Shown: positions 2,361 through 35,756 of the stretch, piece by piece
How positions within the stretch are numbered: position 1 is the first letter of the stretch
How the letters are laid out: each line of letters opens with the position of its first letter
Source: Ziziphus jujuba
Lineage: Eukaryota > Streptophyta > Magnoliopsida > Rosales > Rhamnaceae
Assembly (NCBI RefSeq): GCF_031755915.1
Contig: NC_083385.1
Span: 18,559,001 to 18,623,000 of the forward strand
Reading direction: 5' to 3'
DNA length: 64,000 bases
Notes under the pieces: model-generated
The model's database searches: none
Told to the model about the DNA's origin: nothing
What the model saw: the letters and a program-made list of their open reading frames with translations, nothing else
Position numbers and translations under genes: made by a program

Positions 2361-2677
2361 CTACCATAGCATATGCTAATCCTCAAATAACATAAAAACA
2401 AAAATAAATTAAAAAAAAATACCAGTAGCATATTCCTCGACTCCTTGCCAACTTTTACTTCTCAAAATGGCATTTTGGTTAATATAAAGACTTATATTGT
2501 TCAATAACCAATATATTCTTCTTATACCATATATATAATTGGTTACTCGAACGCTCTGTTTCGGAGCTCTTCTCCAAGCTTCTCTCTGTTTCTCTCTCTC
2601 TCCCTCTCTGAAATGCGGACTGATACTCTGGGAGAGAAGCTCAACCTATGGACTCTTTAACAATAAAACCCACGTTT
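2361..2677 (+). repeat. VPR gene promoter/5'UTR, duplicated copy 1
   Basis: This segment covers the proximal promoter, a CT-rich leader (TTTCTCTCTCTCTCCCTC), the ATG at 2648 and the first ten codons of the VPR-type gene. It is repeated with high identity, same orientation, at 11514-11847. The copies begin at CTACCATAGCATATGC and end at CCCACGTTT. The main difference is an extra 18 bp or so (near ACAAAAAATTGG) in the second copy. The left breakpoint here abuts sequence inside the Helitron. Confidence 0.85.
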
Positions 2678-4993
2678 TCCTTTAATTTCAGCTTCTCAAA
2701 TCCTCAGATCAAACCTCTATGTTGTTCGCACATTTCCTTCTTCAGGTTCACAAACTTCACAAAGCTCAGGACTTCATCCATCTCATTCTACTCTCATAGA
2801 ACTCCATCAAATTCAGAAGACCCAAAACCAAAACGTGATACTTTGGGTCTTCCCTTGAACCCTCTGTTGGTTTTGGTCCCGGTACTTCAAAGCGTCAAGG
2901 GTCTAGTATTTTCCCAAAGCGGGAAATGGGTTTCGGTTTTACAAGCTCATAGAGAATGGGAAGTAGACGATGGTAGTGGTAAATACTTGCAGAACAGCGG
3001 GCTTGGAATAGCTTTATTAAGCGTGACTTCAAATGCCAAGTTGAAGATTAGTCCTTTTGCGGCTCAATTGGCAGCGAACCTGACGTTTGTTTCCGGGTTG
3101 TTTGCTTGGGCTTTAGCGCAGTCGATCAAGGTGGTTTTGAATTTTTTCGTGGAGTGAAAATGGGATTTGAGAATTTTATTTTCATCGGGAGGAATGCCCT
3201 TGTCGCATTCGGCATTGTGCACGGCTCTGTCGACCTCGGTGGCGCTCTGTCATGGTGTAGCGGATTCCCTTTTTTGGGTATGTTTGGGGTTCAGTCCCAT
3301 TGTTATGTATGATGCTATCGGTGTTCGTCGACATGCTGGGATGCAAGCTGTGGTATGAATTGATTATGCTCCTTTTTTTATTTTTTATTTTTTTTAAATT
3401 TTTTTTTATTGGTATCCAGTTTGCTTGTTTGGTTGAAAAGAATTTGTCTTTTTGGATTAAAGTAAAGAATTTTTATGCCTCTAATAGGTCCTGGGGGAAC
3501 AATTTAAGTTCATTGTTACACTTTTTTCTTATCTATGAGGATTTTTTATGTCCAAGTTTAAATTTCCTAGATTACTCATTGTTTAATCCTTGAAAATAGA
3601 TTTTACCATTATGGATTGCGTAAGGGACATTTGAATGCTCCGGTACTTAAAGTACCATATACTTCCTTAAGGTAGGGTTGTGGTTTGAAAGAAGTTACTT
3701 AAAGTATATACTTCCTTAAGGTAGGGCTGTGGTTTGGAAGAAGTTCTATGACTTTGTACAATCTCGATGTATGGTGGAGGCTATGTTTTAGTTGGCTATG
3801 CTTTGCTTTTCTTGACTAGATAGAGTAAGGTTAAACACTGAATATATGTAGGAAGGTAAAATGGTTGATGGATCTTTTAATGCCATAGGAGTCGTGCAAC
3901 TTTTGAGACCAAAGTCCTACGTACTTAGGTAGGAGACAGATGTTGGATGGATGGGATATGGCTTTGAGTCCATATAATTAACAACTCTAAATCATGAAAT
4001 TGCTAAGGTGGAGACTAGATCATGAAAATTGAGGCTTAATGAAGCTTTGGTAAGATTATCCTCACAAACAGCAGTTAATGCAATTAAATTATTGGAATTT
4101 TACCACAATATGTTGCTAGAGCTAAATCCTAGACGGTGATATATGTTGCTTGGTGTTTGAAGTGTTCACTGGCTAAGGTTATAATATGAGATCAAAGCCT
4201 TTGATAGGCGAGCTAAACGAACCATAGCATGTGGTTCAGGATGATGTCAACCTACAATTTATTATTTATACCTGTTGTTACTATGGTCGTGTTTTGCTAC
4301 CATTATGGCCTAAAATACGACTTAAGAGTTAAATACCCTTACTATATGCTCATCCAATGGTGTGGTGTCCTCTGAATAAAGCCCTCTGCTAAGGAATGTG
4401 ATGCAATTGTCAGGCCACAATGCATGCACCAGCTTGTTCATTTTGTTAAGTTCTAACTATTTTGTCAATTTAGAGGCACCTTAGTTTAAGCTTTTCTCTA
4501 TTATCTTTTATTGGCATGTAAGATCTGAGATATGCAGAAAATAAATGTTTCAGTTGTCGAAGAAACAAATGTTATAGCTTTTATGCAATCAGTTAAAGTT
4601 AAACAGTTTATTGGAGGTTCAGGTTATTTTGAAATTCTGAATTCCTATACTTAACTGCATTGAATAATGTAATGCTATTGTCAAACTGAAATCGGGGCGG
4701 GGAATCAGTTTTGAGTTTGGACATTATATGTTGTGAACCAGAGATAATTGGATTCGTTATCTCTCTAAATTGTATATGACTTTATAATGATTTTCATTTG
4801 GTTTCATCATCTTGTTACTGCCTTGCAACAGGTTCTTAATAAGATAGTTGAGGACTTGTTTCAAGGGCATCCTATCAGCCAAAGAAAGCTGAAAGAACTC
4901 CTTGGCCACCCTCCATCACAGGTCCTTGCTGGAGCTGCTCTTGGCATTGTGGTTGCTTGTTTCTGCTGTCAAGGTGGATTCATTGCAATATAA
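2648..4993 (+). pseudogene. DUF212/VPR phosphatase-related gene, nonsense copy
   Basis: Two exons, 2648-3352 and 4832-4993, with a GT..AG intron of about 1.48 kb in phase 0. They join to a ~288-codon protein of the acid phosphatase/vanadium-dependent haloperoxidase-related (DUF212) family. The first ~60 residues are Ser/Thr/Phe-rich and look like a chloroplast transit peptide. Family motifs follow: ALAQSIKVVLNFF, GGMPLSHSA, MYDAIGVRRHAGMQA, then LLGHPPSQVLAGAALGIVVA near the C-terminus. Two defects stand out. Codon 170 (3155-3157) is TGA exactly where the family has Arg before KWD, and the conserved first Ser of GGMPSSHSA is Leu (TTG, residue 185). Both fit C-to-T change. Everything else is in frame, so this is a young pseudogene, a readthrough case or an allele. 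Family assignment is confident; biochemical role in plants is poorly known. Confidence 0.85.
3645..3745 (+). repeat. 52-bp tandem duplication in VPR intron
   Basis: Two adjacent copies of ACTTAAAGTA..TATACTTCCTTA followed by AGGTAGGG(T/C)TGTGGTTTG lie inside the single intron of the VPR-type gene. A few base differences separate the copies. No effect on splicing is evident. Confidence 0.8.
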
Positions 4994-6440
4994 AACTGCT
5001 TTTTGCGGGCAATTTTTGGTCAGATTTTACCGATGCACAGTTCCTGTAAATTACAAGGCCCTGTGGAGTTATTATGTTTTATTGGTCATCAATATGACAC
5101 AGAGAAATTGGAATATTGAGATTGAGAATTCAAATGCTAATTTATTTTGGGGAAACTTCTTTTTCCCGTTTTCTTCTCAGCACCTCAAAACTGATTCAGA
5201 GCCCCTATGAGGCACCAATTTGCACTCATTCTCAACTGTAGTCTGCAGGGGCGAGATACCGCTAGTTCTTGTCTTTGTCACCCTCTAATTTGCTGCCATT
5301 TTTATATTCAAGGAACAATAAATTGTTGTTGAAAGCTAGTATTGATGTTATTAGGTGGTTGTAAATTCCTGTCATGCTCTTTCAAGTGGGGCAGAAGATG
5401 ATGTCTGCAAATTTTTTTTTTTTTTTTTGGTTTTTTTGGGGGGTTCATGGGAAGAGAACAGTAGGGTGGGGTTGTATCCTTTTGAACATTGTAATTCCAT
5501 CATATTATTTTTCTCTTTGTCGGATTCTTATTTTAATACACTCGATCGGAACAACTTCAATGCCCTTCCCTTTTTTTTTTTTTTTTCCTCCTCATGTTTT
5601 GGCTAAGAAATGGATAATCAAGTGAGACTCAGAGCCAACGAGGAATTATGCTTGGCCAACAGGTCGTCCGTTTCTCACAATAGAAATGCCGTTACGAGTG
5701 GGCTGCCGTTTCAGTATCCAAGTCCAAGTCCAATAGTCGAAAAATAGAATGTTTCTCAACATAAAATCTTAACCGACGTCTAATCAAATTTTATTTCAAC
5801 AAACATTTAAAAAAAAAAAAAAAAAAGAAACTAAAATGATTCATAATTTAGGACCTAAAAAAATGTTTTATAAATTTTTGCTTTCAAAATTAATTTTAAA
5901 TTTTTATTAAAAACCAGTTGTGCGGGTTTACTTATTCAAATTATAACAAATTTTGTTACCACTTGAAATAAAGAAGACCTGAAATAAAGAAGACCTTATC
6001 AAGATTTCTATTTATTATTGTTTTTAATTAAAAATAAAACTTCTATTTTCTAATTAATAGTAAAAGAACATATTATGAAACAAGAAAGTAAGAGATAGGT
6101 GGTGCCTTATCCTTTAAACAAAAAAAAAATTGTTTCTGGTCAAAGGACGCTTATTTACTGTTAGGTTGGACTGTTGTCGAAGTTGTTTTCATTTGAAAGT
6201 GGTGACCTCCAACTTCCAACAGTAGGTAAACTCTATTTTCCTTCTTGGTTCGGGCCACTCAGAGCTTATTAGCTAAACACTGAGCAAAAACTTAACATCA
6301 AACTTTGTGAAAGTTGCATAGGAAGAAGATTCAAGACGCAAACAAATCCTGGGGAAGTGAAGTCTGGTGACTGATACATAGTTTGATGGATTAATTCAAC
6401 ATCCCATTAGTTTGACGGATTAATTCAAAATTCTTATGAA
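4994..6440. other. VPR 3' flank and CBL upstream region
   Basis: There is no gene here. The first few hundred bases are the probable 3'UTR of the VPR-type copy, with AATAAA-like signals near 5314. Then come long poly-T tracts near 5409 and 5570, a poly-A tract near 5811, and AT-rich sequence. The last few hundred bases precede the CBL start codon and may be its original promoter and leader. I see no RNA gene. Confidence 0.5.
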
Positions 6441-8293
6441 ATGGGTTGCCGTACCTCAAAGAAAGAACCCAAGTAGTAAAATCTGGCTCGTTGGAGGATC
6501 ATGTTGTTCTTGCTTCTAAAACTCCCATGATCATGTGAGCTTTAGAAACCATCTTTTTCCTATTACAATTTTTTTTCTTTGTTTCTCACTTGACCTCTCT
6601 CTTTTTCTGTGGATGTGTGTCTTTCTGATTGTACTTGTTGCAATACATTTTGTATGGTGGTGGGTTCACGAAACAGCCAAACCCTCCCTTGCTGGATTTT
6701 CCTCAGCCGAATTTGACATTACAACGACGTATATAAAATATATTTTCAACCACATCCTCTAAAGGGGTCCATTAAAAAGAGATGAAATTCCCAATTACGT
6801 ACCAAACAATGTAAACAACATTTCAATCAACCCAATAATAACTCAACACAAATACAAATATAAATAGGATATCAAGATATCTTTTTAAATTGTCATATAC
6901 TACAAAAGTTTAAGCTGATAAAAAACAAATCCAACAATGTATATCAAACTTATTTTTTTAGTAATTTGATTGTACGTTTACTTGCATTTTCAAAACTGCT
7001 GTTTAAAAAAAATAAAAAATAAAAATCACATCGGTTAAAGTGGGTGGAATCTGACAATCCCTATATGATTTGCAGTTAAGATTGAGTCCTTGTATGAGCT
7101 ATTAAGAAACTAAGCAGTTCTGTTGTCAAAGATAGGCATCATAGATATTCTCCAAATTAGTACACTGTAGTTTACTGCTGACGAAACCATTATAAGGATT
7201 ATCTTTTGTTCTGAATCATGTGATCTAATAGTTGTTGGGCTAATTTTTCTCTGTTTAATTGATAGGAAAACTACAGCTTGCACTTTTCTAAAATAGCAAT
7301 AAGCGAAGTCTCATTTGAGAAAGGATATGCTGCACTGATTTTTTAGAGAGTCATGATTCCATGATATTCACTTTTGGGATTTAAAGAAGGAACTTCTGTG
7401 ATCTGCTGTTCTTTATGCTACTTATTAATCTATACACTTTCACAACCTTTTGTTCTACTAAATTTTGCAGATGTTTGATATCGATGGGCACATTTAGTTT
7501 GGATAATTTGTTCAATACTTGAGTGTTGTTACTCAAAAACTCCTTAAGCAATTAAATTTACATCTAAGAAATTTGTGTCTTGGTTGTAGTACTAATATCT
7601 ACATTGACCACTTCTTTTGTTCTCTTTTCCATGTGGGAGTATTTTGATTTCCAGTGTATTTTTTTAAGGCAAGTTTTCAGATACATCGAGTCACTAAAAA
7701 CGGTATATATGATCTGAGGCAGATGCATGTAAAATTATATGCTCTAAGGCAGACTGATTACATTGAGGGCGAGGAGGTAAATTTCCCCTGTGACTGTTCT
7801 TTTATCAATTGGTTCTTCAATGACTTAAATATCTTTCAGTTTATGGTATATATCTGCTCTACCAGTTGATCACCGTCTCAGTAATTGGTTTATAGCTTGC
7901 TGGTATTGGTAAAGCAACGATTAAAAGAACTATCCTGTTTTAGTTTATTAGAATTACCCATGAAAATCATAACTATCCTGGTAATCACAATAAAATTTTC
8001 CTTTCTGCAACTGTAAGCAGTTGAAGAAGATGGTGCTGGCTCTTTTGCTAGAATATGATCTGATGATGTTGTAGGAATGATTCTAGACATGGTGGGTACA
8101 GAAATGGCTCTATACTCTTGGCTCCAAAACATTTTCAGTGTTCTGGTTTTCACATGTTGGTGCTTCCTTGTATGTTATACAGACATTCACGGAAGCAGAT
8201 ACAAAAGGAGATGGCAGGATTGACTCTGAAGAGTGGGAACAATACCTAGCAAAGAATCTTTCTTTACTGAAAAAAATGACTCTTCCTAGCTAA
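6441..8293 (+). pseudogene. CBL: CBL (SOS3-like) calcium sensor, broken copy
   Basis: Calcineurin B-like proteins are EF-hand calcium sensors that recruit CIPK kinases. Exon 1 (6441-6526) starts MGCRTSKKEPK, a typical N-myristoylation/palmitoylation start. It then hits TAG TAA, and in a shifted frame reads SLEDHVVLASKTP. Sequence then jumps to an unrelated repeat (6584-7313), and the exons for the first EF-hands are missing. Later exons are recognisable: one ending at 7776 (YALRQTDYIEGEE), 8021-8091 (LKKMVLALL..., then [10 protein letters not shown] in another frame after a small deletion), and 8183-8293 ([18 protein letters not shown], a complete EF-hand loop, ending MTLPS-stop). The usual C-terminal YLKDI...FPSF segment is lost. 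Splice sites GT/AG still flank the later exons, so this is a DNA-level copy, not a retrocopy. CBL4/CBL8-type is my best guess. Confidence 0.85.
6584..7313 (+). repeat. Inverted dispersed repeat, copy A
   Basis: This segment matches 13241-14130 in the reverse orientation, running from CACTTGACCTCT to AAGCGAAGTCTCA. Its last ~125 bp (from CCATTATAAGGATTATC) also matches part of every monomer of the array at 15.8-22.6 kb. It sits between exon 1 and the later exons of the CBL copy, so it probably inserted there or marks a rearrangement joint. Copy B carries about 150 bp extra in its middle. No clear terminal inverted repeat or target duplication was seen. Confidence 0.8.
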
Positions 8294-9234
8294 TATATGT
8301 CCCAAGTCTACTTTCCCTAGCCTTCCTTGCATTGTCGCGTGACACTAATCATTCTTTCCTTGTATTTGATAAAAATTTCCACCTTTTGCCATGTCTTGCA
8401 AAATTTCCTAGTTTAATGTGTGATGAACAGTGCCAGAGAAGATGGATCCTACACGCAGATGATAGGCCACATAGTATACCAGTGTATAATGCATACTTTT
8501 GTTGAAGCTGACAAGATCGAAAACAGCCCAGTTTTCACTGTGACAACCTCAGATTTCTCAGCAATCAGCATCCATATATCAAGCAAGCAGGCAAGCGATG
8601 TGTATAAGTGGGTATCTTCAACATTCTCCATTATGGAACCTAGTCTATGATTGGTTCTAAGTAGAATGTTTGTCTCTCTGCCTTTTTTGTTCAAGTTTCC
8701 CGATTTGAAAGGGATTAATTGCCTACTCAAGAGGACAAAGATGGGGAAGAAGAAAGGGTTGGCTTATAAGGCTCTGACTTTTTCTTTCTTTCTTTGGTGA
8801 ATAAGGCTATGACTTTTTCAATTGTTATGCAGCATGACAAACTCCAAGTTACTGAATTGATTAGAGAATAGAAATTTGCGTTTGTCAAGCATGGAAAGCC
8901 ACTTGTGTTTGTAGGTTTTGTTCACAACCAGGCTGTGAACCTGTGTGAAATGGAAAGCAGACTCCAAACAAATGGAAAGCAGTCCAAAAGAAAAAACAAA
9001 TGGAAATGAAAATAAATAAATAAAATAAAGAGAGGAAAAAACACAGGGAGACAGTGAATCAGGTATATGAAACAAAAAAGATACGATCAAACTCAAAGAA
9101 AGACAATCCAAAAAATGGCAAAAACATGGATCAGAGAAAGATGTGGTGGAAGAAAAGAGAAATAAGATACGATATAAATGAAAGAGATTAAAAGATTGAG
9201 ATAAAGAGAGAGAAATGACGATCGAGGGTGGGAC
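8294..9234. other. CBL 3' flank and DRP1A intron-1 remnant
   Basis: 8294-8750 probably derives from the 3' part of the CBL gene. A 76-codon plus-strand frame (8420-8650) is present, but I do not recognise it and it may be former UTR. 9234 down to about 8818 reads on the minus strand as the start of intron 1 of the DRP1A fragment: GTCCCACC donor, then pyrimidine-rich sequence. No later DRP1A exon follows. Confidence 0.45.
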
Positions 9235-9363
9235 CTGGCCTCCTACGACAGCAATTGAAGGCAAGGCGTCCCAGAGAGTAGGCAATGCGCTCTCCTCGCC
9301 ATGATCACCTAGGGCTGTGCACGCCCTCTGTAGTTTGTTCACCAGCGTTATCAGGTTCTCCAT
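9235..9363 (-). pseudogene. DRP1A: Orphan exon 1 of dynamin-related protein 1A
   Basis: The minus strand encodes 43 residues: [20 protein letters not shown], then [20 protein letters not shown], then GGQ, followed immediately by a GT donor. This is the N-terminus of the plant DRP1A/ADL1A large GTPase, which works in clathrin-mediated endocytosis and cell-plate formation. In the family the next exon supplies the P-loop (SSGKSS), and an intron at this point after GGQ is expected. Nothing downstream on the minus strand (to 8.2 kb) restores the GTPase domain, so only exon 1, part of intron 1 and the upstream leader were retained. The exon itself is undamaged. It could still provide a promoter and a short translated leader. 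Confidence 0.88.
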
Positions 9364-9447
9364 CTACGCGGAGCCCCGGTTCCAATCGGCGAGTCGACTC
9401 GGTGTTTGTAGTTATGGTAAGTGAGTTGACTCTACGCGATTCAGGAG

Positions 9448-9496
<49 letters not shown>

Positions 9497-9600
9497 GGAG
9501 GGAAGGAAGAGTGTGGTGAATCAGAGAAAAAGAGGCTGGCGAATGAACCGGGAAATGAGAATAGGTCGGTTGGTTGATTTTGGAATTTTTAAACGTCTAT
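9364..9600 (-). promoter_or_regulatory. DRP1A 5' leader with (GA/TC)n tract
   Basis: Upstream of the orphan DRP1A exon on the minus strand is a long pyrimidine tract, a perfect (GA)n/(TC)n run at about 9447-9495. Such CT-rich microsatellites are common in plant 5'UTRs. I infer this is the original DRP1A leader and proximal promoter carried along with exon 1. No clear TATA box was identified. Confidence 0.5.
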
Positions 9601-11513
9601 ATTTTTAACGTCCAAAAAATAAAACGTCTATATTTTTTTCTCATATTCTTTTTCCAGTTTTTATTTTTTAAACTTTGAAATTTTTTTCTCAAAAAAAAAA
9701 AAAATTTGAAATTTTGTTTTTGTTTCAAAATTTTATGCGAAAATTAATTTACTAGTTGGGAAAAATATCCTCACAATTTGTATGGAAATGGAGGAGACTT
9801 TTGAACAAATTTAAACCATTACATTTTCTTTACTTGTCTAAAATAAATCATGATCATAATTTGATAAGTTAAACACTTTAGGAAATAAGACTTATATTAA
9901 GATTTTCTATATTTATATATTTTTTTCTTTTAGTGCTATGGATTGATATAAAACAAATATAAAATACAAAATTATTATTTTTATATATATGGATAAATTT
10001 GAAATATAGAAAAAAAAATTAGAAATCAAAATATTTTGATGATGATTTTGAAAAAAGAATAATAATATCATCATCAAAAAGAATAATAATAATTAACAAA
10101 CAATTATGGAGTTCTCTTATTATTTAGTTGATAAATCATCAATTTTTGATTGCTATAGTTCATATTGTTTCAACTTTAATAGCTAGCAATAATATTATAT
10201 AAATTTCTTTTTATTTATTTTTTCTATAATGTTTAATTTATTTGCATTACTTTTTTTTTTAAAAAAAATTAACTTAAATTTCATAATAGTCACAACTATT
10301 TAGATTTGGAAAAGTGTTCAATAATATTATGCATTTTTTTAATAATAACTTTTTAAAAAATAAAAAAAATTAATCTCACTAAAAGTTATTAGAATTGTTT
10401 TTTTTTTTTTTTGAGTAAAAGGATTTGGTTTAATTCTAACCACTTCCAATGATCAATTTAGATTATTATATATGTAAGAGAAAAATTAACAATATTGATA
10501 TTTAGATTGTACAAAAGCATAATCAAATAAAAAATTGTTTTCCAATGTACTTATTAAAAAAAAAAATCCTATTAATGATTTTTATTGACAATTAATTAAT
10601 TATATCTTTATTAGTTTTTTATTCTTAGAAAAAAATAATTTTTTATGAAAAAATTTGAATAATAAATGATTGATTGAATAAACAGTAGGTAATGAAGGCG
10701 CTTGCATCGATTTTAGAATAGGCTTTAATAAAATATTTTCCTTAATTACTATTTTCATGAAACCTGAACTTAATATAATTAAATTAAAAATCATGATATT
10801 TACAACTTATATTCACATCGAAAAAAAATATAAATTATTCACTTCAAACTACATAAAACTCATTTTAACATTGATTATTGATTAGTAGCAAACTTATGTT
10901 TCAAGGAAGAAAAACAGTGGTAAACTTATGAGATCAAATTACCAATGTGATTAATTACAATTTTCCACATATTTTACTTTTAATACGAAATTTACAATAT
11001 TAAATATTTATTTGACCTAATAATCTTTTATATGAAGAAATAATGAAAAAATCATTATTTTATATGAAAAAAATAATGATTATTATCAGAGAAGAAAAAA
11101 ATAATGATGCCATCATTGCTTCTCATAGAAGATTAAACATAATTAAGTTAAATTATGCCTGTAAGTTATAATCAAACAATGCCTATAAGTTACAATTCAA
11201 ATAATTTTGAAAAGTTTAAGCATCGTCCTGAAACTTTTTTCCTTAATTATTTTTTTCCCAAAAGCATTTCAAATTATTTTATTTTTATTTTTTATTTTTA
11301 TTAAAAAAATAAAATAGAGATGTCTCATTTCTGGTATTGGTAGGTGCAATTAAATTGACATACGGGCTTACTTTCCACCAATCAAATGTCAAACTGCAAA
11401 TTAAGCAAAAACGAAATTGAAGTACAAAAACTGAAATGGGCTTACATCAACTATCATCCACGAGGCATCCTAAACGGAAGGGACATAAGATTGGTCCCCA
11501 TGGTATGTCAAAG
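9601..11513. other. AT-rich intergenic stretch
   Basis: Very AT-rich, with many poly-A and poly-T runs. Open frames here are short and low-complexity. I see no recognisable gene, RNA or element end. The last ~170 bp, before the duplicated VPR promoter, are somewhat less AT-rich and may be more of the original promoter of that copy. Confidence 0.6.
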
Positions 11514-11847
11514 CTACCATAGCATATGCTAATCCTCAAATAACATAAAAACAAAAATAAATTTAAAAAAAATACAAAAAATTGGAAAAATACCAGTAGC
11601 ATATTCCTTGGCTCCTTGCCAAGTTTTACTTCTCAAATGGCATTTTGGTTAATATAAAGACTTATATTGTTCAATAACCAATATATTCTTCTTATCCCGT
11701 ATATATAATTGGTTACTTGAACGCTCTCTTTCGGAGCTCTTCTCCAAGCTTCTCTCTGTTTCTCTCTCTCTTCCTCCCTGAAATGCGGCCTGATACTCTG
11801 GGAGAGAAGCCCAACCCATGGACTTTTTGATAATAAAACCCACGTTT
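11514..11847 (+). repeat. VPR promoter/5'UTR/ATG, duplicated copy 2
   Basis: Direct repeat of 2361-2677 with scattered base changes. It keeps the CT-rich leader and the start codon at 11818. Identity stops after CCCACGTTT, ten codons into the coding region. The frame then runs into unrelated sequence and stops at TAA after 19 codons. Only the promoter, leader and start are present, with no downstream exon, so this is a promoter fragment with no gene behind it. Confidence 0.85.
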
Positions 11848-12018
11848 GGTTCCTTTATCTTAGTAGAGTTTTAATTTTTTGTTATTATATTTTATTTTAT
11901 TTATTTTTGTTTTTTAATTTTGCAATTAAGTAGTTAGACGTGGAAAGGTAATAGTGACACCTTATATTAAACACATTTTGTTTTTTTATTTGATATAAAA
12001 TTTTCTACCATGTTATGT

Positions 12019-12080
12019 AGGCCCAAACATTAAAGAGGGGCCCAAAGTAATCAAAATATTTGGGCTTGTATTGTGGGCCC
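12019..12080 (+). promoter_or_regulatory. Cluster of GGCCCA site-II elements
   Basis: Four GGCCCA/TGGGC(C/T) motifs occur within 62 bp: AGGCCCAAA, GGGCCCAAA, TTGGGCTTG and GTGGGCCC. In plants such site II elements, bound by TCP factors, are typical of promoters of nuclear genes for organelle-directed proteins. They lie 135-195 bp before the MORF start codon, which is the expected place. The telo-box-like AACCCTAA at 12244 just inside the coding region also fits that promoter class. Confidence 0.65.
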
Positions 12081-12214
12081 TTATCACATGCTATTCATTT
12101 AAAGCTGAAAAGGAATGAAACGCACACCTAAACCCTGAACCAGCACCACGCTCTCCTCGGTCCGAGTTACTCTGTAAAACTCTAACTGAGTTTCAGCTCC
12201 ACAACCCACCAGCT

Positions 12215-13090
12215 ATGGCGATTAGCTCACTTCGTCTCCGCCGAACCCTAACCACCTTATTTACTTTCCATTGCTCTCTCGCGGTGGCTTCTTCATCAGT
12301 CTCGGCTTCGCCTCTTCTTCATCTCCACGATTTCGTACAATCACCCCTTGCTTCGCCGATTCAGTCTCATGTCCAGCTCCTTCAATCTCGTATGTTTAGG
12401 TCGTCTGCGATATTGCTATTGTCCTCCCGATAGGCGTACAATAGCAGTAACAACCAGAGCGGCGAGATTGGACCCGATACGATACTTTTCGAAGGTTGCG
12501 ATTATAACCATTGTCTAATCGTCATGGATTTCCCTAAGGATCAAAAGATTCCTCCTAAAGAGATGGTTCCCATGTACAAAGAGACTTGTGCTAAGGGCTT
12601 GAACATCAGGTAATAATAAGGAACTTCATTTTTAATGCCTTTTAATTGTCATTTCTATTGTATTTTGTTTACAGTCTGTTATTTTATTAATTTCTCAATG
12701 CCAATACTTGTATGTTCATGGGGATTTTTAGGTTGGTGTATTTTTGAGTGGTTTTGGGTTTGAAAGGTTAGTGGTTTGCCTTTGTGATTTTTGCCCTGAT
12801 TATAGATTGTTATTGTCGTTTCCATGTCTACCGTGTTGAAGAGGCAAAAAAGAAAATATATGCTTGTAGCACAACAACTTATGTAGGATTTCAAGCAGTG
12901 ATGATAGAAGAAGAGTCAGAAAAGTTTCATGGTAAAACTTTGGTGGCATTTTTAATGTTTTTACTACGAATAAGAATAATATGCGGTAATGATGCACAAT
13001 TGTTTTACTTTTTGATCTAAACAGAGTTACCTGGGGTAGTTTTCGTACTGCCGGATTCGTACATTGACCCGCAGAACAAGGAATATGGAG
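12215..13090 (+). pseudogene. MORF: MORF5/6-like RNA-editing factor, truncated copy
   Basis: MORF (DAG-like) proteins bind PPR proteins and enable C-to-U RNA editing in plant organelles. Three exons can be placed: 12215-12609, 12834-12931 and 13025-13090, with phases that agree. The N-terminus MAISSLRLRRTLTTLF is an Arg/Ser-rich mitochondrial-type presequence. The MORF core follows: [56 protein letters not shown]. Defects: an in-frame TAG at 12431-12433, Trp of the usual NHWLI motif changed to Cys, the acceptor of intron 1 reading CG instead of AG before 12834, and loss of all exons after KEYGG (exon 3 ends at a GT donor, then poly-T and an unrelated repeat). Introns are retained. The gene is clearly dead, although its promoter looks well preserved. 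The closest relatives should be MORF5/MORF6, judged from MVPMYKETCAKGLNI and CSTTTY. Confidence 0.9.
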
Positions 13091-13240
13091 GTATTTTTTT
13101 TTTTTTTGATTTTTCTTTTCTTTTCTTTTTTTTTTTTGGAGAACTCTAATTGAAGTTTTCCAAGTTATGGAGTCTATCCTTTGGTATTCAATTTTAAACT
13201 TGGCATTCAATGTTGTAATTCTCAAGGGATAAATTCAAGT

Positions 13241-14130
13241 TGAGACTTCGCTTATTGCTATTTTGGAAAAGTGCAAGCTGTAGTTCTCTGATCAATTGAA
13301 CAGAGCAAAATTAGTCCAACAACAATTGAATCACATGATTCAGAACAAAAGATAATCCTTATAATGGTTTCGTCGGTAGTAAACTACAGTCTACTAATTT
13401 GGAGAATATCGATGATGCGTATCTTTGACAACAGAACCGCTTAGTTTCTTAACAGCTCATACAAGGACTCAATCTTACTCACAGAAACTGCAAATCAAAT
13501 AGGGATTGTCAGATTCCACCCACTTTAACCAATGTGGTTTTTTTTTTTTTTTTTTTTTTAAACAGAAGTTTTGCAAATGCAAGTAAACGTACAATCATAT
13601 TACTAAAAAATAAGTTTGATATACATTGTTGGATTGTTGGATTTGTTTTTTATCAGCTTAAACTTTTGTAATAGACAAGATATCTTGAAATTTTATTTAT
13701 ATTTGTATCTATGTTGAATTATTGTTGGGTTGATTGAAATGTTGTTTACATTGTTAGACACGTAATTGGGAATTTCTCCTCGTTTTAATGGACCCTTTTA
13801 GAGGATGTGTTTGAAAATATATTTTATATACGTCGTTGGATTTGTTTCCTATAAGACTTTTTGGACAACGGCAACTTAACACATCTAAACATCTTATTCA
13901 TCAGACAATCAACCAGTTATTTTGGCAGACAAACAAATTAGATATTATCGATAATGTTGATGATGTGAATGTTCTAATAAAAATATAAGTATTAATGTTA
14001 AATTCGGCTGAGTAAAATCCAGCAAGGGAGGGTTTGGCTGTTTCGTGAACCCACCACCATACAAAATGTATTGCAACAAGTACAATCAAAAAGATCCACA
14101 TCCACAGAAAAAGAAAGAGGTCAAGTGGAA
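13241..14130 (-). repeat. Inverted dispersed repeat, copy B
   Basis: Reverse-orientation counterpart of 6584-7313. Both copies share a short frame reading FLIVLVAIHFVWWWVHETAK with PSLAGF after it. Copy B carries ~150 bp (about 13850-14000) absent from copy A, and a long poly-T near 13540. Its left 125 bp is homologous to the B3-derived array monomers. It begins about 150 bp after the last MORF exon, so it is adjacent to the point where that gene is cut off. Confidence 0.8.
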
Positions 14131-14523
14131 AAAAAAAAAAAAAAAAAAACTGAAAACATAAAAACAAAAACAAGATAGTCAAATGATAACATATGAGTAT
14201 TCTTATTGACTTAAATTGATCAATAAATGTGTAGGTCATTAAGAGTTTCAATTGTAAGTTTTATGAACTAATTAAGAAACCTAATTTAAACATTAATAGA
14301 AAGCTTATAAAATGTATCAAACTTTTAACTTTTGTTATCTTTCTTGATTCAAACTTTTATTTTTGTTATTATTTTTATAATTATTATTTTTTTACAGGCT
14401 GTTTAATAGATTGAATTCAAAGATAAGCTTTTGTCTGTTACATTTAAAAAAAAAAAAAAAAATTATTTATGAGAAAATCTTGAATTCTGGGTTGTACAGC
14501 TATCAAATATAATGATAGCAAAA

Positions 14524-14565
<42 letters not shown>

Positions 14566-14729
14566 CTATTTGAAATTTGAATTAAAACACGATTGGAGTT
14601 ATATAACTACCACATCAGCTTAGAAATGCCAGCTGCATATTGTTATCTCCAGTTGTGTTATGTCGTACAGCTATTAGATTTAGTTAAAACTGTATCAGCA
14701 AAAGCTCTACAATTACGGCACCCTTTCTT

Positions 14730-14764
<35 letters not shown>

Positions 14765-15588
14765 GTAATTATATATATGTAATTAGAGAGAAGTTACAGG
14801 TCACTATAATCAAGATTTCGCAAACAAAGAAATTAGAGAATAATTCATTTTCTTTCACTTTTGTATCAAATATTACAAGATCATGACCATGTAATTTGTG
14901 AACTAAATAATTATAAAATTTGTAGTTTCGACCGTATGAGTTCAAACTGGAAATATATGCGTATGTATGTGTATATACGGTTCAAAGCCATTTGTACGTA
15001 AGATGATGCTTGAGGTAATGATTGTGGTAAAAAAATGAAAGGGTGGTTTCTAACAGTCCAATTTGACTTTTTTGTTTTTATTTTTTTATCTTTTTTTAAT
15101 TTTTGGAATGATTCAACTAATTAAAGTTTTTTTATCAGCTAGGCTTGATAATTACAGTTTCGAATATTGTTCTTATTAGAAATTTGATTAGGATGTTATT
15201 CAAAGGGGATGGGATATACAAAATAAGTTTGAAATTTGGTTTATTAATTTAAAAGATCCGCAAAAAGCTTTCAAATCTAGAGACTTTATTATTATTATTT
15301 TTTTTCAAGAAAAGGGAAAAAAGAGTTCCAAGTATGTGTGCTGGAATAATCAAGCTTGATCATGACAGTTTGTGCCGCACGATTGTTGCAACATTTATAT
15401 ATGTTCCTTATCATAACAATATTACCAATTAGAAAATGTATATAAATATATAATAAATATCATTAGAAATATATAAAATGTTAAAATACTACAACTTTAT
15501 TAGAAAGTTTTATTGTGCATGCATGTGGTGCATGCAACAATGAAATTAGAAATATATATTATAACTCCCTCTAGCCTGAATTAGGCTG
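14131..15588. other. AT-rich spacer with poly-T and (TC)n(TA)n
   Basis: A poly-T run of over 30 bases near 14528, a (TC)n(TA)n microsatellite near 14731-14764, and otherwise AT-rich sequence. A short motif (GTACAGCTAT..A.AT...AGCAAAAGC) occurs twice, near 14496 and 14668. No gene recognised. Confidence 0.55.
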
Positions 15589-15900
15589 CTATATATAAAC
15601 TGGAATGAGATCAACAACCTGAATGTAGAATTTTCCATTCCTTGCGTGTTTCCAAAAAACTATCTTGTTCCCAGCTTGGAGACCTTGGTCCCTGACGAAT
15701 TCGCCCCATTCCCTGCGGTTAAAGACAGGCTTCGAGAGATTTCAACTCCCCTAAGGTCTAGTACTAAATATACACGAAGCTCATTCTCATTGTCTCTTAA
15801 AAACTTGGATGGAAAACTTAATCTATCGTTGATATCGGTAGGCGTCGATACTTTTACAGCTGAGGACGCTATCATCTGGTTTTGCTCCATATTGGTTCTC
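15589..15900 (-). pseudogene. B3 DNA-binding-domain gene, last exon fragment
   Basis: Read on the minus strand, two frames together give a plant B3 domain. The first frame is AVKVSTPTDINDRLSFPSKF followed by LRDNENELRVYLVLDLRG. After a frameshift near 15735 the second is REWGEFVRDQGLQAGNKIVF, then WKHARNGKFYIQVVDLIPVY, ending at TAG (15589-15591). The family signature is present: a 'TPTDI..RLSFP' start and W..FV...GL..G..I.FW near the end. B3 proteins are plant transcription factors; this resembles the short REM-like/DUF313-type group, but the subfamily is uncertain. The exon is the leftmost and longest version; its upstream half recurs in every array monomer to the right. Confidence 0.75.
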
Positions 15901-18900
15901 CAAGGCATTATCTTTTTTCTTCTTTCTTTTTTTTTTTTTTTTGGCAATACTCTATAGGGCTTGGTATTAAACACTGAAGGAGCACTCCATATTTATAGAT
16001 TCAATGGCAAATGCATAGCAATAATCATAATGAGGGAATTCCAATATTATTCAAAGGGCTGTAATCGAGGCCAAAAGAGTGCGTGAAAAATTTTATGATA
16101 ACCAATTGTGTATATAGCCATAGCTTGTGTTATTCAACTAATGAAGCTGAATAAGAACGTAAAAAGATTTTATTTTTGTTTCCAAATTTAGCGTAAAATA
16201 AGTATCAAACCAGTATAAGGATTATCTCTTGTTATGAATCATGTGATCTAATTGTTGTTGGACTGATTTTGCCCTGTTTAATTGATTGGAGAACTACAAC
16301 TTGCACTTTTCCAAAATTGCAATAAGCGAAGTTTTGATTCTCTGATTTTGCTCTGTTTACTTGATCGGAGAACTAAAGCTTGCACTTTTCCAAAATAGCA
16401 ATTAGCTCAATGTCATTGTTTGTTAAAAACTTGGATGGAAAACTTAATCTATCGTTGATATCGGTAGGCGTCAGTACTTTTACAGCTGAGGAAGCTATCA
16501 TTTGGTTTTGCTCCATATTGGTTCTCTAAGGCTTTTTCTTTTTTCTTTTTTTTTTTTTTTGGTAACACTCTATAGGGCTTGGTATTAAACAGTGAGGGAG
16601 AACTCCATATTTATAGATTCAATGTCAAACGCATAGCAATAATCATAATGAGGGAATCGTAATATTATTCAAACGGCTATAATCGAGGCCAAAATAGTGT
16701 GTGAAAAATTTTATGATAACAAATAGCCATAGCTTGTGTTACTCAACTAATGAAGCTGAATAAGAGCATAAAAAGATTTTATTTTTGTTTCCAAATTTAG
16801 CGTAAAATAAGTGTCAAACCATTATAAGGATTATCTTTTGCTATGAATCATGTGATCTAATTGTTGTTGAACCGATTTTGCTCTGTTTAATTGATCGGAG
16901 AACTACAGCTTGCACTTTTCCAAGGTTACAATAAGCAAAGTTCTGATTCCCTAATTTTGCTTCGCTTAATTGATCTGAGAACTATAGTTGGCACTTGTCC
17001 AAAATAGCAACAAGCTCATTCTAATTGTCTCTTAAAAACTTGGATGGAAAACTTAATCTGTCGTTGATATCGGTAGGCGTCAGTACTTTTACAGCTGAGG
17101 ATGCTCTCATTTGGTTTTGCTCCATATTGGTCCTCTAAGGCTTTTTCTTTCTTCTTTTTCTTTTTTTGGGTAATACTCTATAGGGCTTGGTATTAAACAC
17201 TGAGGGAGCACTCCATATTTATAGATTCAATGTCAAACGCATAGCAATAATCATAATGAGGGAATCTTAATATTATTCAAACGGTTATAATTGAGGCCAA
17301 AAGAGTGCGTGAAAAATTTTATGATGACCAATAGCCATAGCTTGTGTTACTCAACTAATGAAGCAGAATAAGAACGTAAAAAGATTTTATTTTTGTTTCC
17401 AAATTTAGCGTAAAATAAGTATCAAACCAGTATAAGGATTATCTTTTGTTATGAATCATGTGATCTAATTGTTGTTGGACTGATTTTGCTCTGTTTAATT
17501 GATCGGAGAACTACAACTTGCACTTTTCCAAAATTGTAATAAGCGAAGTTTTGATTCTCTGATTTTGCTCTGTTTACTTGATCGGAGAACTAAAGCTTGC
17601 ACTTTTCCAAAATAGCAATTAGCTCATTGTCATTGTTTGTTAAAAACTTGGATGGAAAACTTAATCTATCGTTGATATCGGTAGGCGTCAGTACTTTTAT
17701 AGCTGAGGAAGCTATCATTTGGTTTTGCTCTATATTGGTTCTCTAAGGCTTTTTCTTTTTTCTTTTTTTTTTTTTGGTAACACTCTACAGGGCTTGGTAT
17801 TAAACGCTGAGGGAGAACTCCATATTTATAGATTCAATATCAAACGCATAGCAATAATCATAATGAGGGAATCGTAATATTATTCAAACGGCTATAATCG
17901 AGGCCAAAATAGTGCGTGAAAAATTTTATGATAACAAATAGCCATAGCTTGTGTTACTCAACTAATGAAGCTGAATAAGAGCGTAAAAAGATTTTATTTT
18001 TGTTTCCAAATTTAGCGTAAAATAAGTGTCAAACCATTATAAGGATTATCTTTTGCTATGAATCATGTGATCTAATTGTTGTTGAACCGATTTTGCTCTG
18101 TTTAATTGATCGGAGAACTACAGCTTGCACTTTTCCAAGGTTGCAATAAGCGAAGTTCTGATTCCCTAATTTTGCTTCGTTTAATTGATCTGAGAACTAT
18201 AGCTGGCACTTGTCCAAAATAGCAACAAGCTCATTCTAATTGTCTCTTAAAAACTTGGATGGAAAACTTAATCTGTCGTTGATATCAGTACGCGTCAGTA
18301 CTTTTACATCTGAGGACGCTCTCATTTGGTTTTGCTCCATATTGGTCCCCTAAGGCTTTTTCTTTCTTCTTTTTTTTTTTTTGGTAATACTCTATAGGGA
18401 TTGGTATTAAACACTGAGGGAGCACTCCATATTTATAGATTCAATGTCAAACGCATAGCAATAATCATAATGAGGGAATCTTAATATTATTCAAACGGCT
18501 ATAATTGAGGCCAAAAGAGTGCGTGAAAAATTTAATGATGACCAATAACCATAGCTTGTGTTACTCAACTAATGAAGCAGAATAAGAACGTAAAAAGATT
18601 TTATTTTTGTTTCCAAATTTAGCATAAAATAAGTATCAAACCAGTATAAGGATTATCTTTTGTTATGAATCATGTGATCTAATGGTTGTTGGACTGATTT
18701 TGCTCCGTTTAATTGATCGGAGAACTACAGCTTGCACTTTTCCAAAATTGTAATAAGCGAAGTTCTGATTCCCTGATTTTGCTCTGTTTAATTGATCAGA
18801 GAACTAAAGCTTGAACTTTTCCAAAATAGCAGTTAGCTCATTGTCATTGTTTCTTAAAAGCTTGGATGGAAAACTTAATCTATCGTTGATATCAGTAGGC

Positions 18901-21900
18901 ATCAGTACTTTGATAGTTTAGGACGCTATCATTTTGTTTTGCTCCATATTGGTTCTGTAAGGCTTTCTCTCTTTTTTTTTTTTTTTTTTGGTAATACTCT
19001 ATAGGGATTGGTATTAAAAATTGAGGGATTGCTCCATATTTATAGATTCAATGTCAAATGCATAGTAATAATCGTAATGAGGGAATCATAATATTATTCA
19101 AAGGGCCGTAGTCGTGGCCAAAAGAGTGCGTGGAAAAATTTATGATAACCAATTGCGTATATAGCCATCGCTAGTATTAATCATCTAATGAAGCTGAATA
19201 AGAACGTAAAAAGATTTTATTTTTGTTTCTAAATTTAGTGTAAAATAAGTATCAAACCATTATAAGGATTATCTTTTGTTGTGAATCATGTGATCTAGTT
19301 GTTGTTGGACTGATTTTGCTCTATTTAATTGATCGGAGAACTACAGCTTGTACTTTTCCAAAATTACAATAAGCGAAGTTCTGATTCCCTGATTTTGCCC
19401 TATTTAATTGATCTGAGAACTATTGCTTGCACTTGTCCAAAATAGAAATAAGCTCATTCTAATTGTCACTTAAAAACTTGGATGGAAAACTTAATCTGTC
19501 GTTGACATCGGTAGGCGTCAGTACTTTTACATCTGAGGACGCTATCATTTGGTTTTGTTCCATATTGGTTCTCTAAGGCTTTTTCTTTTCTCTTTTTTTT
19601 TTTGGTAATACTCTATAGGGCTTGGTATTAAACACTGAGGGAGCACTCCATATTTATAGATTCAATGTCAAGCGCATGGCAATAATCATAATGAGGGAAT
19701 CGTTGTATTATTCAAACAACTGTAATCGAGGCCAAAAGAGTGTGTTAAAAATTTTATGATAACCAATTGTGGCTTGTGTTACTCAACTAATGAAGCTGAA
19801 TAAGAACGTAAAAAGATTTTAGTTTTGTTTCCAAATTTAGCGTAAAATAAGTATCAAACCATTTTAAGGATTATCTTCTGTTGTGAATCGTGTGATCTAA
19901 TTGTTGTTGGACTGATTTTGCTTTGTTTAATTGATGAGAGAAGTACAGCTTGCACTTTTCCAAAATTGCAATAAGCGAAGTTCTGATTCCCTGATTTTGC
20001 TCTGTTTAATTGATCTGAGAACTATAGCTGGCGCTTGTCCAAAATAGCAATAAGCCCATTCTAATTGTCTCTTAAAACATGGATGGAAAACTTAATCTAT
20101 TGTTGATGTCGGTAGGCGTCAGTACTTTTACAGCTGAGGACGCTGTCATTTGGTTTTGCTCCATATTGGTTCTCTAAGGCTTTCTCTTTTTTCTTTTATT
20201 TTTGGTAAAACTCTATAAGGATTGGTATTAAACACTGAGGGATTGCTCCATATTTATAGATTCAATGTCAAATGCATAGCAATAATCATAATGAGGGAAT
20301 CGTAATATTATTCAAAGGGCTGTAATCGTGGCCAAAAGAGTGCGTGGAAAAATTTATTACAACCAATTGCATATATAGCCATCGCTAGTATTAATCATCT
20401 ATTGAAGCGGAATAAGAACGTAAAAAGATTTTATTTTTGTTTCTAAATTTAGCGTAAAATAAGTATCAAACCATTATAAGGATTATCTTCTGTTGTGAAT
20501 CATGTGATCTAATTGTTGTTGGACTGATTTTGCTCTGTTTAATTGATCGGAGAAGTACAGCTTGCACTTTTCCAAAATTGCAATAAGCGAAGTTCTGATT
20601 CCCTGATTTTGCTCTGTTTAATTGATCTGAGAACTATAGCTGGCGCTTGTCCAAAATAGCAATAAGCCCATTCTAATTGTCTCTTAAAAACATGTATGGA
20701 AAACTTAATCTATCGTTGATGTCGGCAGGCGTCAGTACTTTTACAGCTGAGGACGCTGTCATTTTGTTTTGCTCCATATTGGTTCTCTAAGGCTTTCTCT
20801 TTTTTCTTTTTTTTTTTTGGGAATACTCTATAAGGCTTGGTATTAAACACTGAGGGAGCACTCCATATTTATAGATTCAATGTCAAATGCATAGCAATAA
20901 TCATAATGAGGGAATCGTAATATTATTCAAACGACTGTAATCGAGGCCTAAAGAGTGCTTGAAAAGTTTTATGATAACAAATTGTGTATATAGCCATAGC
21001 TTGTGTTACTCAACTAATGAATTTTAATAAGAACGTAAAAAGATTTTATTTTCGTTTCTAAATTTAGCGTAAAATAGGTATCAAACCATTATAAGGATTA
21101 TCATTTGTTATGAATCATGTGATCTAATTGTTGTTGGACTGTTTTTGCTTTGTTTAATTGATCGGAGAACTACAGCTTGCACTTTTCCAAAATTGTAATA
21201 AGCGAAGTTCTGATTCCCTTATTTTGCTCTGTTTAATTGATCGGAGAACTACAGCTAGCACTTTTCCAAAATTGCAATAAGCGAAGTTCTGATTCCCTGA
21301 TTTTACTCTGTTCAATTGATCTGAGAACTATAGCTGGCACTTGTCCGAAATAGCATTAAGCTCATTCTAATTGTCTCTTAAAAACATGGATGGAAAACTT
21401 AATCTATCGTTGATATCGGTAGGCGTCAGTACTTTTATAGCTGAGGACGCTGTCATTTGGTTTTGCTCCATACTGGTTCACTAAGGCTTTTTCTTTTTTC
21501 TTTTTTGTTTAGTAATACTCTATAGGACTTGGCATTAAGCACTAAGGGAGCACTCCATATTTATAGATCCAATGTCAAACGCGTAGCAATAATCATAATG
21601 AGGGAATTGTAATATTATTCAAACGGCTGTAATTGAGGCCAAAAGAGTGCGTGCAAAATTTTATGATAACAAATTGTGTATATAGCCGTAGCTTGTGTTA
21701 CTCAACTAATGAAGCTGAATAAGAGGGTAAAAAGATTTTATTTTTGTTTCTAAATTTAGCGTAAAATTAGTATCAAACCATTATAAGGATTATCTTCTGT
21801 TGTGAATCATGTGATTTAATTGTTGTTGGACTGATTTTGCTCTGTTTAATTGATCGGAGAACTACAGCTTGTACTTTTCCAAAATTGTAATAAGCGAAGT

Positions 21901-22562
21901 TCTGGTTCCCTGATTTTGCTCTGTTTAATTGATCTGAGAACTATAGTTGGCACTTTTCCAAAATCTTAACAAGCTCATTCTAATTGTCTTTTAAAAACTT
22001 GGAGGGAAAACTTAATCTGTCGTGGATATCGGTAGGCGTCAGTACTTTTACAGCTGAGGACGATCTCATTTGGTTTTGTTCCATATTGGTTCTCTAAGGC
22101 TTTCTCTTCTCTCTTTTTTTTTTTTGGTAATACTCTATTGGGCTTGGTATTAAACACTGAGGGAGCACTCCATATTTATAGATTCTATGTCAAACGCATT
22201 GCAATAATCATAATGAGGGAATCGTTATATTATTCAAACGGCTGTAATCGAGGCCAAAATAGTGCGTGAAAACTTTTATGATAACCAATTGTGTATATAG
22301 CCATAGCTTGTGTTACTCAACTAATGAAGCTGAATAAGAGCGTAAAAAGATTTTATTTTTGTTTCCAAATGTAGCGTAAAATAAGTATCAAACCATTATA
22401 AGGATTATCTATCATTATGAATCATGTGATCTAATTGTTGTTGGACTGTTTTTGCTCTGTTTAATTGATCGGAGAACTACAACTTGCACTTTTCCAAAAT
22501 TTCAATAAGCAAAGTTCTTATTCCCTGATTTTGCTCTATTTAATTGATCGGAGAACTAAAGC
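15780..22562 (-). repeat. ~610-bp tandem array derived from B3 exon
   Basis: The landmark GGATGGAAAACTTAATCT recurs near 15805, 16431, 17040, 17648, 18255, 18862, 19478, 20079, 20692, 21386 and 21999. That gives about eleven monomers, mostly 601-626 bp, with one of 694 bp. Each has the same order (read on plus): B3-exon piece, poly-T/TTTCTT tract, GG(T/C)ATTAAACACTGAGG, TATTTATAGATTCAATGTC, GATTTTATTTTTGTTTC, then 75-80-bp subrepeats containing GTTTAATTGATC(G/T)GAGAACTA. On the minus strand the exon piece encodes the TPTDINDRLSFPSKF part of the B3 domain, now mostly out of frame. Neighbouring monomers are imperfect. The array ends at 22562, where Copia sequence begins. It was probably expanded by unequal exchange. 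Confidence 0.92.
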
Positions 22563-27579: not shown

Positions 27580-27892
27580 TGTCGATGTGTTGATACAAAT
27601 TTCATGACATCCAGCAAGTAGATTAGTCATCCTTTTAAGCTAATGTGCAAGCCAATATATGGCTAAACCATTTACACCTAATGTAATAGGTATCTTCACG
27701 CATGTGCTTGTAGCTTAATTAGTTTACATATGCAGATAACATATGTCAACATGCTTGAAATTGTAATCTTAATTGTTGGCACCTAAACTAGCTACTTGTC
27801 AACATGCATGTGTATATAATTTCCTATAAATAACAGCTCTCTCATTAACTTTGTATAAAAAAAAAATTGTAGTGAGGTGTTGGGAGTTTCAC
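27580..27892 (+). mobile_element. Putative 3' LTR of the Copia remnant
   Basis: Starts TGTCGATGTG directly after the polypurine tract. It contains a TATA box (CCTATAAATAACAGC near 27825) and ends near TTTCACA. The 5' LTR that would confirm the borders is missing, so the right edge is approximate. Confidence 0.45.
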
Positions 27893-28372
27893 ATTGTTAA
27901 AACTTCCACCTTCTTTTTCCAAAATTCAATATAAAAAATTCGAAAAATTTCCAAAATATTTTTCCCATGAATTTCTAACATATTCTCATCTGTAGCTTTT
28001 ATACATAAAAGTTTGTTCAGAAATTTAATAGTTTAGTTATAATAATTTTTTATTTATGTAGTATGTTTTAGTAGTTAGGTAAATTGTTATTTCAAAGGAA
28101 AAAAACAAAACAAAAAAGTAGTTAGGTAAATTGTTAAAATACAAAATAATAATAAAAAAAGGTGTTATCCTTCGACAACATGGCTGTAAGCGTCTTTTGT
28201 TATCTTACCTTTTAAGTTCAACTAGGTTTTTGGCTAAAGACTCCTCTTCTCCAATTTAAGATATAATTGTAATGAAATTTAATTTGGAAAGGGATTTTTT
28301 AAAAATCAAATATATATATATATATATAGATAGATAGATATATAAAAGTATATGAATATATATATATAGATA
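27893..28372. other. AT-rich spacer with (TA)/(GATA) microsatellite
   Basis: Intergenic sequence with a short duplicated phrase (AAGTAGTTAGGTAAATTGTTA around 28070 and 28115). A (TA)n/(TAGA)n tract (28310-28372) is the site where the solo LTR inserted. Confidence 0.55.

Positions 28373-31293: not shown

Positions 31294-31294
<1 letters not shown>
28373..31294 (+). mobile_element. ~2.9-kb solo LTR (TGTAACACC...TGACA)
   Basis: The block starts TGTAACACCCCGTCACG and ends GGGTCCTGACA, with TG..CA borders and GATA on both sides (28369-28372 and 31295-31298), although the flanks are a microsatellite. It has no gag or pol. Composition differs sharply from its surroundings. It begins with repeated GTTGACCG phrases, has a poly-pyrimidine stretch (28927-29060), then a GC-rich island (29110-29510) with many CCGGCG motifs, then AT-rich sequence and another GC-richer tail. 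This architecture is typical of large plant Gypsy-type LTRs, so a solo LTR left by LTR-LTR recombination is the best reading. A LARD-like element is the alternative. Open frames inside are compositional artefacts. Confidence 0.7.
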
Positions 31295-31326
<32 letters not shown>

Positions 31327-35400: not shown

Positions 35401-35691
35401 TGCTTAAGATTGGTTGGCCCCCTTTGCCTTATCATCCCCTGCAATGAATAAGTAACATGAATTAGTAACATGAATTGTTGCTCCAGTATCAAACCACCAA
35501 GTATTCATAGGCACATCAATAATCTTGGTCTCAATCATTAAAATATTACCTTTCTTTTCTTGCTTTCCCTTCAAATGCCAACAATCTATCTTCTTGTGTG
35601 CAACTTTATTGCAGTAGCCACACTTTCCATTGAAGTAGGCTTTCCTTTCCTCTATGTGATGAGCTCCATCCCTAGGCACTTTTGGCTTCAT
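32450..35691 (-). pseudogene. Copia pol (PR-IN-RT-RH), disabled
   Basis: Minus-strand frames give, in order: gag knuckle CGYCNKVAHKKIDC, protease WWFDTGATIHVTNS, GAG-pre-integrase LWHKRLGHISKHRM, integrase HTDVYGPFTPTALGG / DDFSRYG / SDRGGKF / [17 protein letters not shown] start [22 protein letters not shown] core (KKSIYGLKQVSRQWY, LYVYDILLTTND) and RNase H (GYSDADYKCCVDDKKSTTGY, DNTAAVSFSNNLKGTPGARY). Several frameshifts break it. Three changes hit function: RT YVDD is YVYD, the catalytic Glu of integrase (usually NG(V/I)AER) is Gly, and ~30 residues carrying the integrase CxxC half of the HHCC site are deleted between MLVKDGI and HTDVYGP. The element therefore cannot move on its own. Confidence 0.9.
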
Positions 35692-35756
35692 ACCAGAAAA
35701 CTTCTTCTTGTTGGGTTAAATCCTTGTCCAGATGTAAATCCTTATCCAGGCTTAAA

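Follow-up and report, generated by a model that had tools for sequence, protein, structure and literature searches.

The stretch of Ziziphus jujuba DNA analysed here (the window) spans 64,000 nucleotides and is C7:18559001-18623000, C7 being contig NC_083385.1; window position 1 is C7:18559001. At 15777-22562 it holds 11 head-to-tail units on the minus strand, each consisting of a 5' piece of a B3 gene with its own promoter to the right. This agrees with the original prediction, made from the letters alone, of about eleven tandem units of ~610 bp.

Anatomy of the array

Each unit contains a promoter, a TATA box, a 5' untranslated region, the ATG and 37 codons, followed by repeats that are common to the neighbourhood of an EF-hand gene. 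The repeated B3 piece is the start of the gene and reads MEQNQMIASSAVKVLTPTDINDRLSFPSKF.., and in units 1 to 11 it starts at 15777, 16404, 17012, 17621, 18227, 18835, 19450, 20052, 20664, 21358 and 21971. Measured at a promoter landmark the unit spacing is 600-618 bp, with one unit of 692 bp; from ATG to ATG it is 601-626 bp, with one of 694 bp. The single long unit carries an extra 79-bp subrepeat, and the last unit, which ends at 22562, is slightly short at 589 bp. The autocorrelation has maxima at 607 bp (0.43) and 1214 bp (0.45), while the maximum in one shuffled sequence was 0.30. Tandem Repeats Finder, run for periods of up to 500 bp only, missed the units of this array and also those of the 3' array described below.

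The TATA 9-mer is identical in all 11 units (at 15990, 16608, 17216, 17823, 18430, 19037, 19651, 20251, 20866, 21558 and 22173). The ATG is kept in ten units and is ATA in the remaining one. Past codon 37, units 2-11 continue into a 79-bp-type subrepeat and a 126-bp piece; the latter is present once in every unit, and in most a second, partial 79-bp subrepeat comes after it. The unit with its ATG at 16516 is 97.9% identical to that at 17733, and the unit at 17125 is 96.7% identical to that at 18340.

The B3 domain is complete in none of the units, ten of which end after ~37 codons. The leftmost copy runs on to a stop codon as predicted and retains the 3' end of the gene, but its frame is broken by a 64-bp internal deletion relative to the whole genes at C7:3.08 Mb. 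No known RNA family reached its gathering score in window 14500-23500. The features are listed in Table 1.

Table 1. Features of the 5'-half array and its left flank, in window coordinates
Feature	Position	Strand	Description
Left flank	2361..15723	.	Four ordered blocks duplicating C7:3143222-3131972 (reversed)
Sole inverted match of the array within the window	13245..13370	.	Complementary to the 126-bp piece, with exact runs of up to 29 nt
Single copy of the 3' half	14990..15723	-	Last ~44 codons and 3' flank
Terminal B3 gene copy (pseudogene)	15589..15890	-	ATG (15890) to TAG (15589-15591)
5'-half array	15777..22562	-	11 units, ~600-626 bp each, one of 694 bp, last 589 bp
B3 5' coding piece, unit 1	15780..15890	-	111 nt, MEQNQMIASSAVKV...NENE; same place within the other ten units
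TATA box, unit 1	15990..15998	-	CTATAAATA on the minus strand
126-bp piece, unit 1	16207..16332	.	Also at 7184-7309 and, inverted, at 13245-13370
Recent duplication of a dimer within the array	16406..18836	-	From pairwise unit identity

Whole-gene relatives and the parental unit

Genome-wide searches covered 14 contigs (393,829,984 bases). A 33-nt pattern from the 5' piece, allowed up to 3 mismatches, occurs 21 times, 11 of them in this array and 10 in whole-gene copies; the backward control gave 0. With 11 of the 21 occurrences at one locus, the 5' repeat is a single-locus array and not a dispersed satellite.

The whole copies form a small clan whose coding sequence is a single exon. Five (A1-A5) lie at C7:3083617-3096111, four (B1-B4) at C4:25.800-25.811 Mb and one (C1) at C4:32.989 Mb. 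A1 and A3 are open from the common ATG to the common stop. A4 is open yet reads through the stop position, C1 is open across the 120 codons inspected, and B4 is open from codon 6 with the common ATG out of frame. Copies A2, A5, B1, B2 and B3 are broken.

Within the C7 cluster the ATGs of A1 and A2 are 1531 bp apart and those of A4 and A5 1530 bp. The full promoter and the 126-bp intergenic piece are found in three of the five C7 copies (A2, A4 and A5), while LTR-like (long terminal repeat) insertions interrupt other copies; the C4 copies have only ~200 bp of promoter in common with the units. When the 1531-bp parental unit is aligned with two monomers, all have the 5' end (111 nt) and the promoter in common, and a net 0.9 kb of coding sequence, 3' flank and intergenic DNA is gone from the monomers between the two. 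At the join only CTT is in common, as judged by eye.

The original prediction had each monomer as part of an exon with adjoining non-coding sequence. The coding piece is from a B3 gene as proposed, while the rest is the gene's own promoter and intergenic DNA. The idea of an exon recruited on its own does not fit, as the gene has a single exon and the unit comes from an internal loss in a ~1.53-kb tandem gene unit.

Assignment to the B3 family

Neither the repeated 5' piece alone nor the open frame alone has a Pfam match. The leftmost copy, with its two halves joined by one X, matches Pfam B3 (PF02362) with an E-value of 3e-6 and 27.5 bits, which is below the curated cut-off of 30.1 bits, as are three whole copies (18.7, 22.9 and 20.6 bits). 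A search of the joined copy against solved structures gave no matches, and one parent alone found only FUS3 (E 0.036). No homologue of the joined copy or of the intact parent was found in a large protein set, because no candidate had three 5-residue words in common with them.

An alignment of seven proteins from the same genome (four clan copies and three others with PF02362 matches) was more sensitive. Used with hmmsearch, it found the B3 domains of RAV1 (2.1e-10), TEM1 (1.5e-8) and NGA1 (5.3e-8), and also ARF5 and FUS3. The structure of the intact copy at C7:3083617 was modelled with a predicted local distance difference test score (pLDDT) of 78.1 and a predicted template modelling score (pTM) of 0.72, at an alignment depth of only 7 sequences. 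All 18 Foldseek matches of this model at E<=0.001 are B3-domain proteins, with template modelling scores (TM-scores) by query length of 0.50-0.62; the top matches are TEM1, FUS3, LEC2 and NGA1, and VAL1 and ARF B3 domains are also matched. The seven-protein profile and the predicted fold together mean that the B3 reading stands. The parent protein is a B3 domain, as tested by its relation in fold and profile to solved B3 domains, and the monomers hold part of its coding sequence, as had been claimed. The genome has at least 120 B3 matches, many of them clustered.

A complementary array at a paralogous locus

The 3' half of the B3 gene forms a tandem array of its own at C7:3095977-3132696 (37 kb), next to the whole genes. 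This mirror-image array is the more surprising part of the finding. It comprises 47 monomers, 46 complete (705-728 bp) and one split by an insertion; the 47 complete monomers counted by script include the one at 3092261, which is not part of the array. Within the array, the first complete monomer is the 3' end of gene copy A5. Seven junctions were inspected, five of which read ..AAA/TT[TG]AAC[CT]G.. (the slash marking the join) and two, at 3096703 and 3131265, the variant ..AAAGG/TAAC... The single copy of the 3' half in the window (Table 1) corresponds to a ~720-bp monomer of this array. A ~2.96-kb LTR-like element (TGTCAGGACCC..GGGTGTTACA) with a 5-bp target duplication lies within the 3' array at C7:3104266-3107226, and relatives of it are found beside the whole genes and at window 28371-31296.

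In C7:3107365-3131175 a 2156-bp trimer is repeated exactly, 11.04 times in all, and not one mismatch occurs over the 23.8 kb. A DNA search of the own genome recovered monomers up to 3104265 and none from the trimer block, so such searches can miss high-copy arrays. The exactness of the block is unusual, and reflects either very recent growth or copying by the assembler. That the number of repeats, in either array or in both, was invented by an assembler is nevertheless exceedingly improbable: the units in the window differ from one another by Kimura two-parameter distances (K80) of 0.02-0.13 and are thus not erroneous copies of each other, and neither the window nor the source stretch contains an N.

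The two loci are also related by their flanks. The left-flank blocks at 2361-6721, 6724-8729, 8727-11291 and 13734-15723 are 90.9-94.0% identical, gaps included, to the source segment beside the 3' array. Window 11292-13733 has no block counterpart in the source, where 11291 and 13734 adjoin, and 13242-14144 matches the EF-hand neighbourhood of the source segment in inverted order. The right flank, 22563-28300, has no matches within C7:3058001-3158000.

These comparisons bear on the alternative that a gene fragment was captured and multiplied by a transposon (a Helitron, Pack-MULE or Pack-CACTA). A pair of inverted arms (6569-7313 and 13241-14145) and several gene pieces (EF-hand, MORF) to the left of the array would suit such an element. 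The array is not enclosed by the arms, however, and over 13 kb the left flank and the source correspond in four blocks that keep their order, with no transposon-type boundary found on that side. The source is itself a tandem gene cluster with the same promoter and intergenic sequence, and no element termini were seen on reading the sequence at 15777 or 22562, where no dedicated termini search was made. We regard capture by a transposon as very unlikely.

Origin of the arrays

The array in the window very probably goes back to a tandem cluster of small single-exon B3 genes, of which it is what was left after decay and renewed amplification. The parental repeat of ~1.53 kb would have comprised a promoter, a 121-codon B3 gene, the 3' flank and a piece of the EF-hand-gene neighbourhood. 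A net loss of 0.9 kb from one such unit, reaching from codon 37 to the intergenic piece, would have reduced it to ~610 bp (promoter, start and 37 codons); this shortened unit was presumably then multiplied by unequal crossing-over, most recently as a 1.2-kb dimer. At the paralogous locus a mirror event may have reduced the gene to its last 44 codons and 3' flank, a ~720-bp unit that grew to 47 monomers.

Several observations sit poorly with this account in its simplest order of events. The left-flank blocks differ from the source by K80 values of 0.032-0.037 in three blocks and 0.068 in the fourth (13734-15723, which includes the 3' piece), whereas the median is 0.095 among the 5' array units (range 0.022-0.132, 55 pairs) and 0.100 among 17 3' monomers (136 pairs). 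Transversions alone give the same picture: 0.015-0.0175 for three blocks, 0.0235 for 13734-14989 and 0.033 for 14990-15723, against medians of 0.038 for the 5' units and 0.043 for the 3' monomers. Because the units of each array share a junction and exceed the flank divergence, both junctions seem older than the segmental duplication. Old junctions with one array per locus then call for differential loss or for a faster rate in the repeats. In a midpoint-rooted tree without an outgroup, moreover, the units with ATGs at 15890, 17125 and 18340 side with the parental copies, which a single clean amplification would not predict.

Coding constraint

There is no sign of coding constraint in either half. 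Diversity in the 5' array, taken per 50 columns, is 0.04-0.13 overall and 0.07-0.11 where the coding piece lies. The three codon positions of the 17 3' monomers have values of 0.120, 0.091 and 0.124, compared with 0.089 in the flank; for this set 30 trimer-block repeats of the 47 were dropped, and it includes the gene's own 3' end and the separate monomer at 3092261. A selected micropeptide of ~34 residues per unit was considered and rejected, since the coding piece is no less diverse than the sequence around it, stops occur in several units and one unit has lost its ATG.

Tested as satellite DNA, the 5' piece forms head-to-tail repeats without coding constraint; it has neither a high copy number nor long or multiple arrays. 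The word satellite in the original prediction therefore suits the tandem arrangement and is otherwise generous for a piece with 21 copies genome-wide, 11 of them here. A whole B3 protein is made by neither array. The 5' array may still start short transcripts, because each unit retains its TATA box.

A possible role in silencing

A functional reading is that the promoter-bearing direct repeats are transcribed and yield 24-nt small interfering RNAs (siRNAs), by which the surviving genes of the B3 clan would be methylated or silenced in trans, as at maize b1. The geometry resembles that of b1, with its seven 853-bp direct repeats in the excerpt of PMC3798267 consulted, and the TATA box is retained in every unit. 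Along the direction of transcription, 2.8 kb separate the inverted 126-bp piece from the array copy closest to it. In genes A1-A4, 35-64 of 346 21-mers occur exactly in the 5' array (A1 64, A2 58, A3 37, A4 35); the number is 7 in A5, and 44, 14, 11 and 14 in copies B1, B2, B3 and B4, with 13 of 340 in C1. The eight best-scoring canonical B3 loci among the at least 120 have next to nothing in common with the array, with 0-2 matching 21-mer positions per locus for the 5' array and 0-3 for the 3' array, so any small-RNA target would be this same small clan; small-RNA action is conceivable only against it.

The pattern of cytosine deamination points both ways, in a test that is weak as the rows are related and the counts not independent. 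Transitions among the units are more frequent at CG (25/286, 0.087) and CHG (32/340, 0.094) than at CHH (42/1607, 0.026). CHG is raised in four parental copies too (17/84), and in the 17 3' monomers CG is raised (71/578, 0.123) and CHG is not (24/491, 0.049, against 138/2760, 0.050, for CHH). At b1 itself, siRNAs also come from alleles outside paramutation, as stated in the excerpt of PMC3798267. We consider a functional silencing array rather unlikely. There is likewise little chance that the two complementary half-arrays would act together as a two-ended small-RNA reservoir silencing the B3 clan, with the exact trimer copies as a sign that the process is still running. The leading reading is that unequal exchange within a gene cluster produced the arrays as a non-coding by-product.

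Neighbouring features

The inverted arms are up to ~0.9 kb long, belong to the EF-hand-gene neighbourhood and are 91-93% complementary in their longer ungapped pieces. A transposon with long terminal inverted repeats was rejected for them, as the arms match the source's EF-hand-gene neighbourhood and leave the array unenclosed. The 126-bp piece adjoins remnants of the EF-hand gene (EF-hand match 30.2 bits), which we take to be calcineurin-B-like. MORF exons lie in window 11292-13733, and these MORF-domain exon pieces (103.1 bits when joined) stop shortly before the right inverted arm. The minus-strand reading at window 9235-9363, which has no such match in Pfam, is presumably the start of a dynamin-related protein. 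Window 32680-36620 (minus strand) holds a decayed copia-like retrotransposon, as judged from its reading frames and from motifs that we assume to be copia-like.

Significance and comparison with known systems

How a tandem repeat arose usually has to be inferred once its parent has disappeared. Here the parent genes survive on the same chromosome as the shortened unit and the two junctions, together with a small array of 11 units and a larger one whose 47 monomers include an exact higher-order repeat. That each of two opposite halves of a single gene family gave rise to an array suggests that clusters of genes in ~1.5-kb units readily spawn new tandem repeats. With a promoter in each 5' unit, the array also provides a natural test of whether RNA-directed methylation is drawn to repeated promoters. 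The open-library literature, to which the search was limited, yielded no paper on a tandem array derived from B3 genes.

The closest known counterparts are the small REM-type B3 genes that form tandem clusters in plants, REM being a label that we assume for the whole copies. The fold is the same and the tandem clustering is seen among the at least 120 B3 matches of this genome, but here most units have been reduced to a single end of the gene and have lost the capacity to encode the domain.

The maize b1 repeats are, in the excerpt of PMC3798267, seven 853-bp direct repeats that lie ~100 kb upstream and are unique in the genome. The likeness lies in direct repeats at a single locus, comparable in the length and number of their units, each of which contains regulatory sequence (same excerpt). 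The repeats described here differ in that they consist of the promoter and start of a gene, and genes homologous to it lie elsewhere.

Truncated gene pieces are also carried by Pack-type elements and Helitrons, and may feed siRNAs against the donor, according to the part of PMC13317346 consulted. The source in jujube is instead a tandem gene cluster, and ends of such elements were not seen by reading, the extent of the search made for them.

Tandem repeats in the centromeres of jujube and maize were born from pieces of LTRs, as reported in the excerpt of PMC12596083. There, as in the arrays described here, a longer parent was cut down to a unit that was then multiplied; the parent of the centromere repeats is a retrotransposon, and here it is a protein-coding gene.

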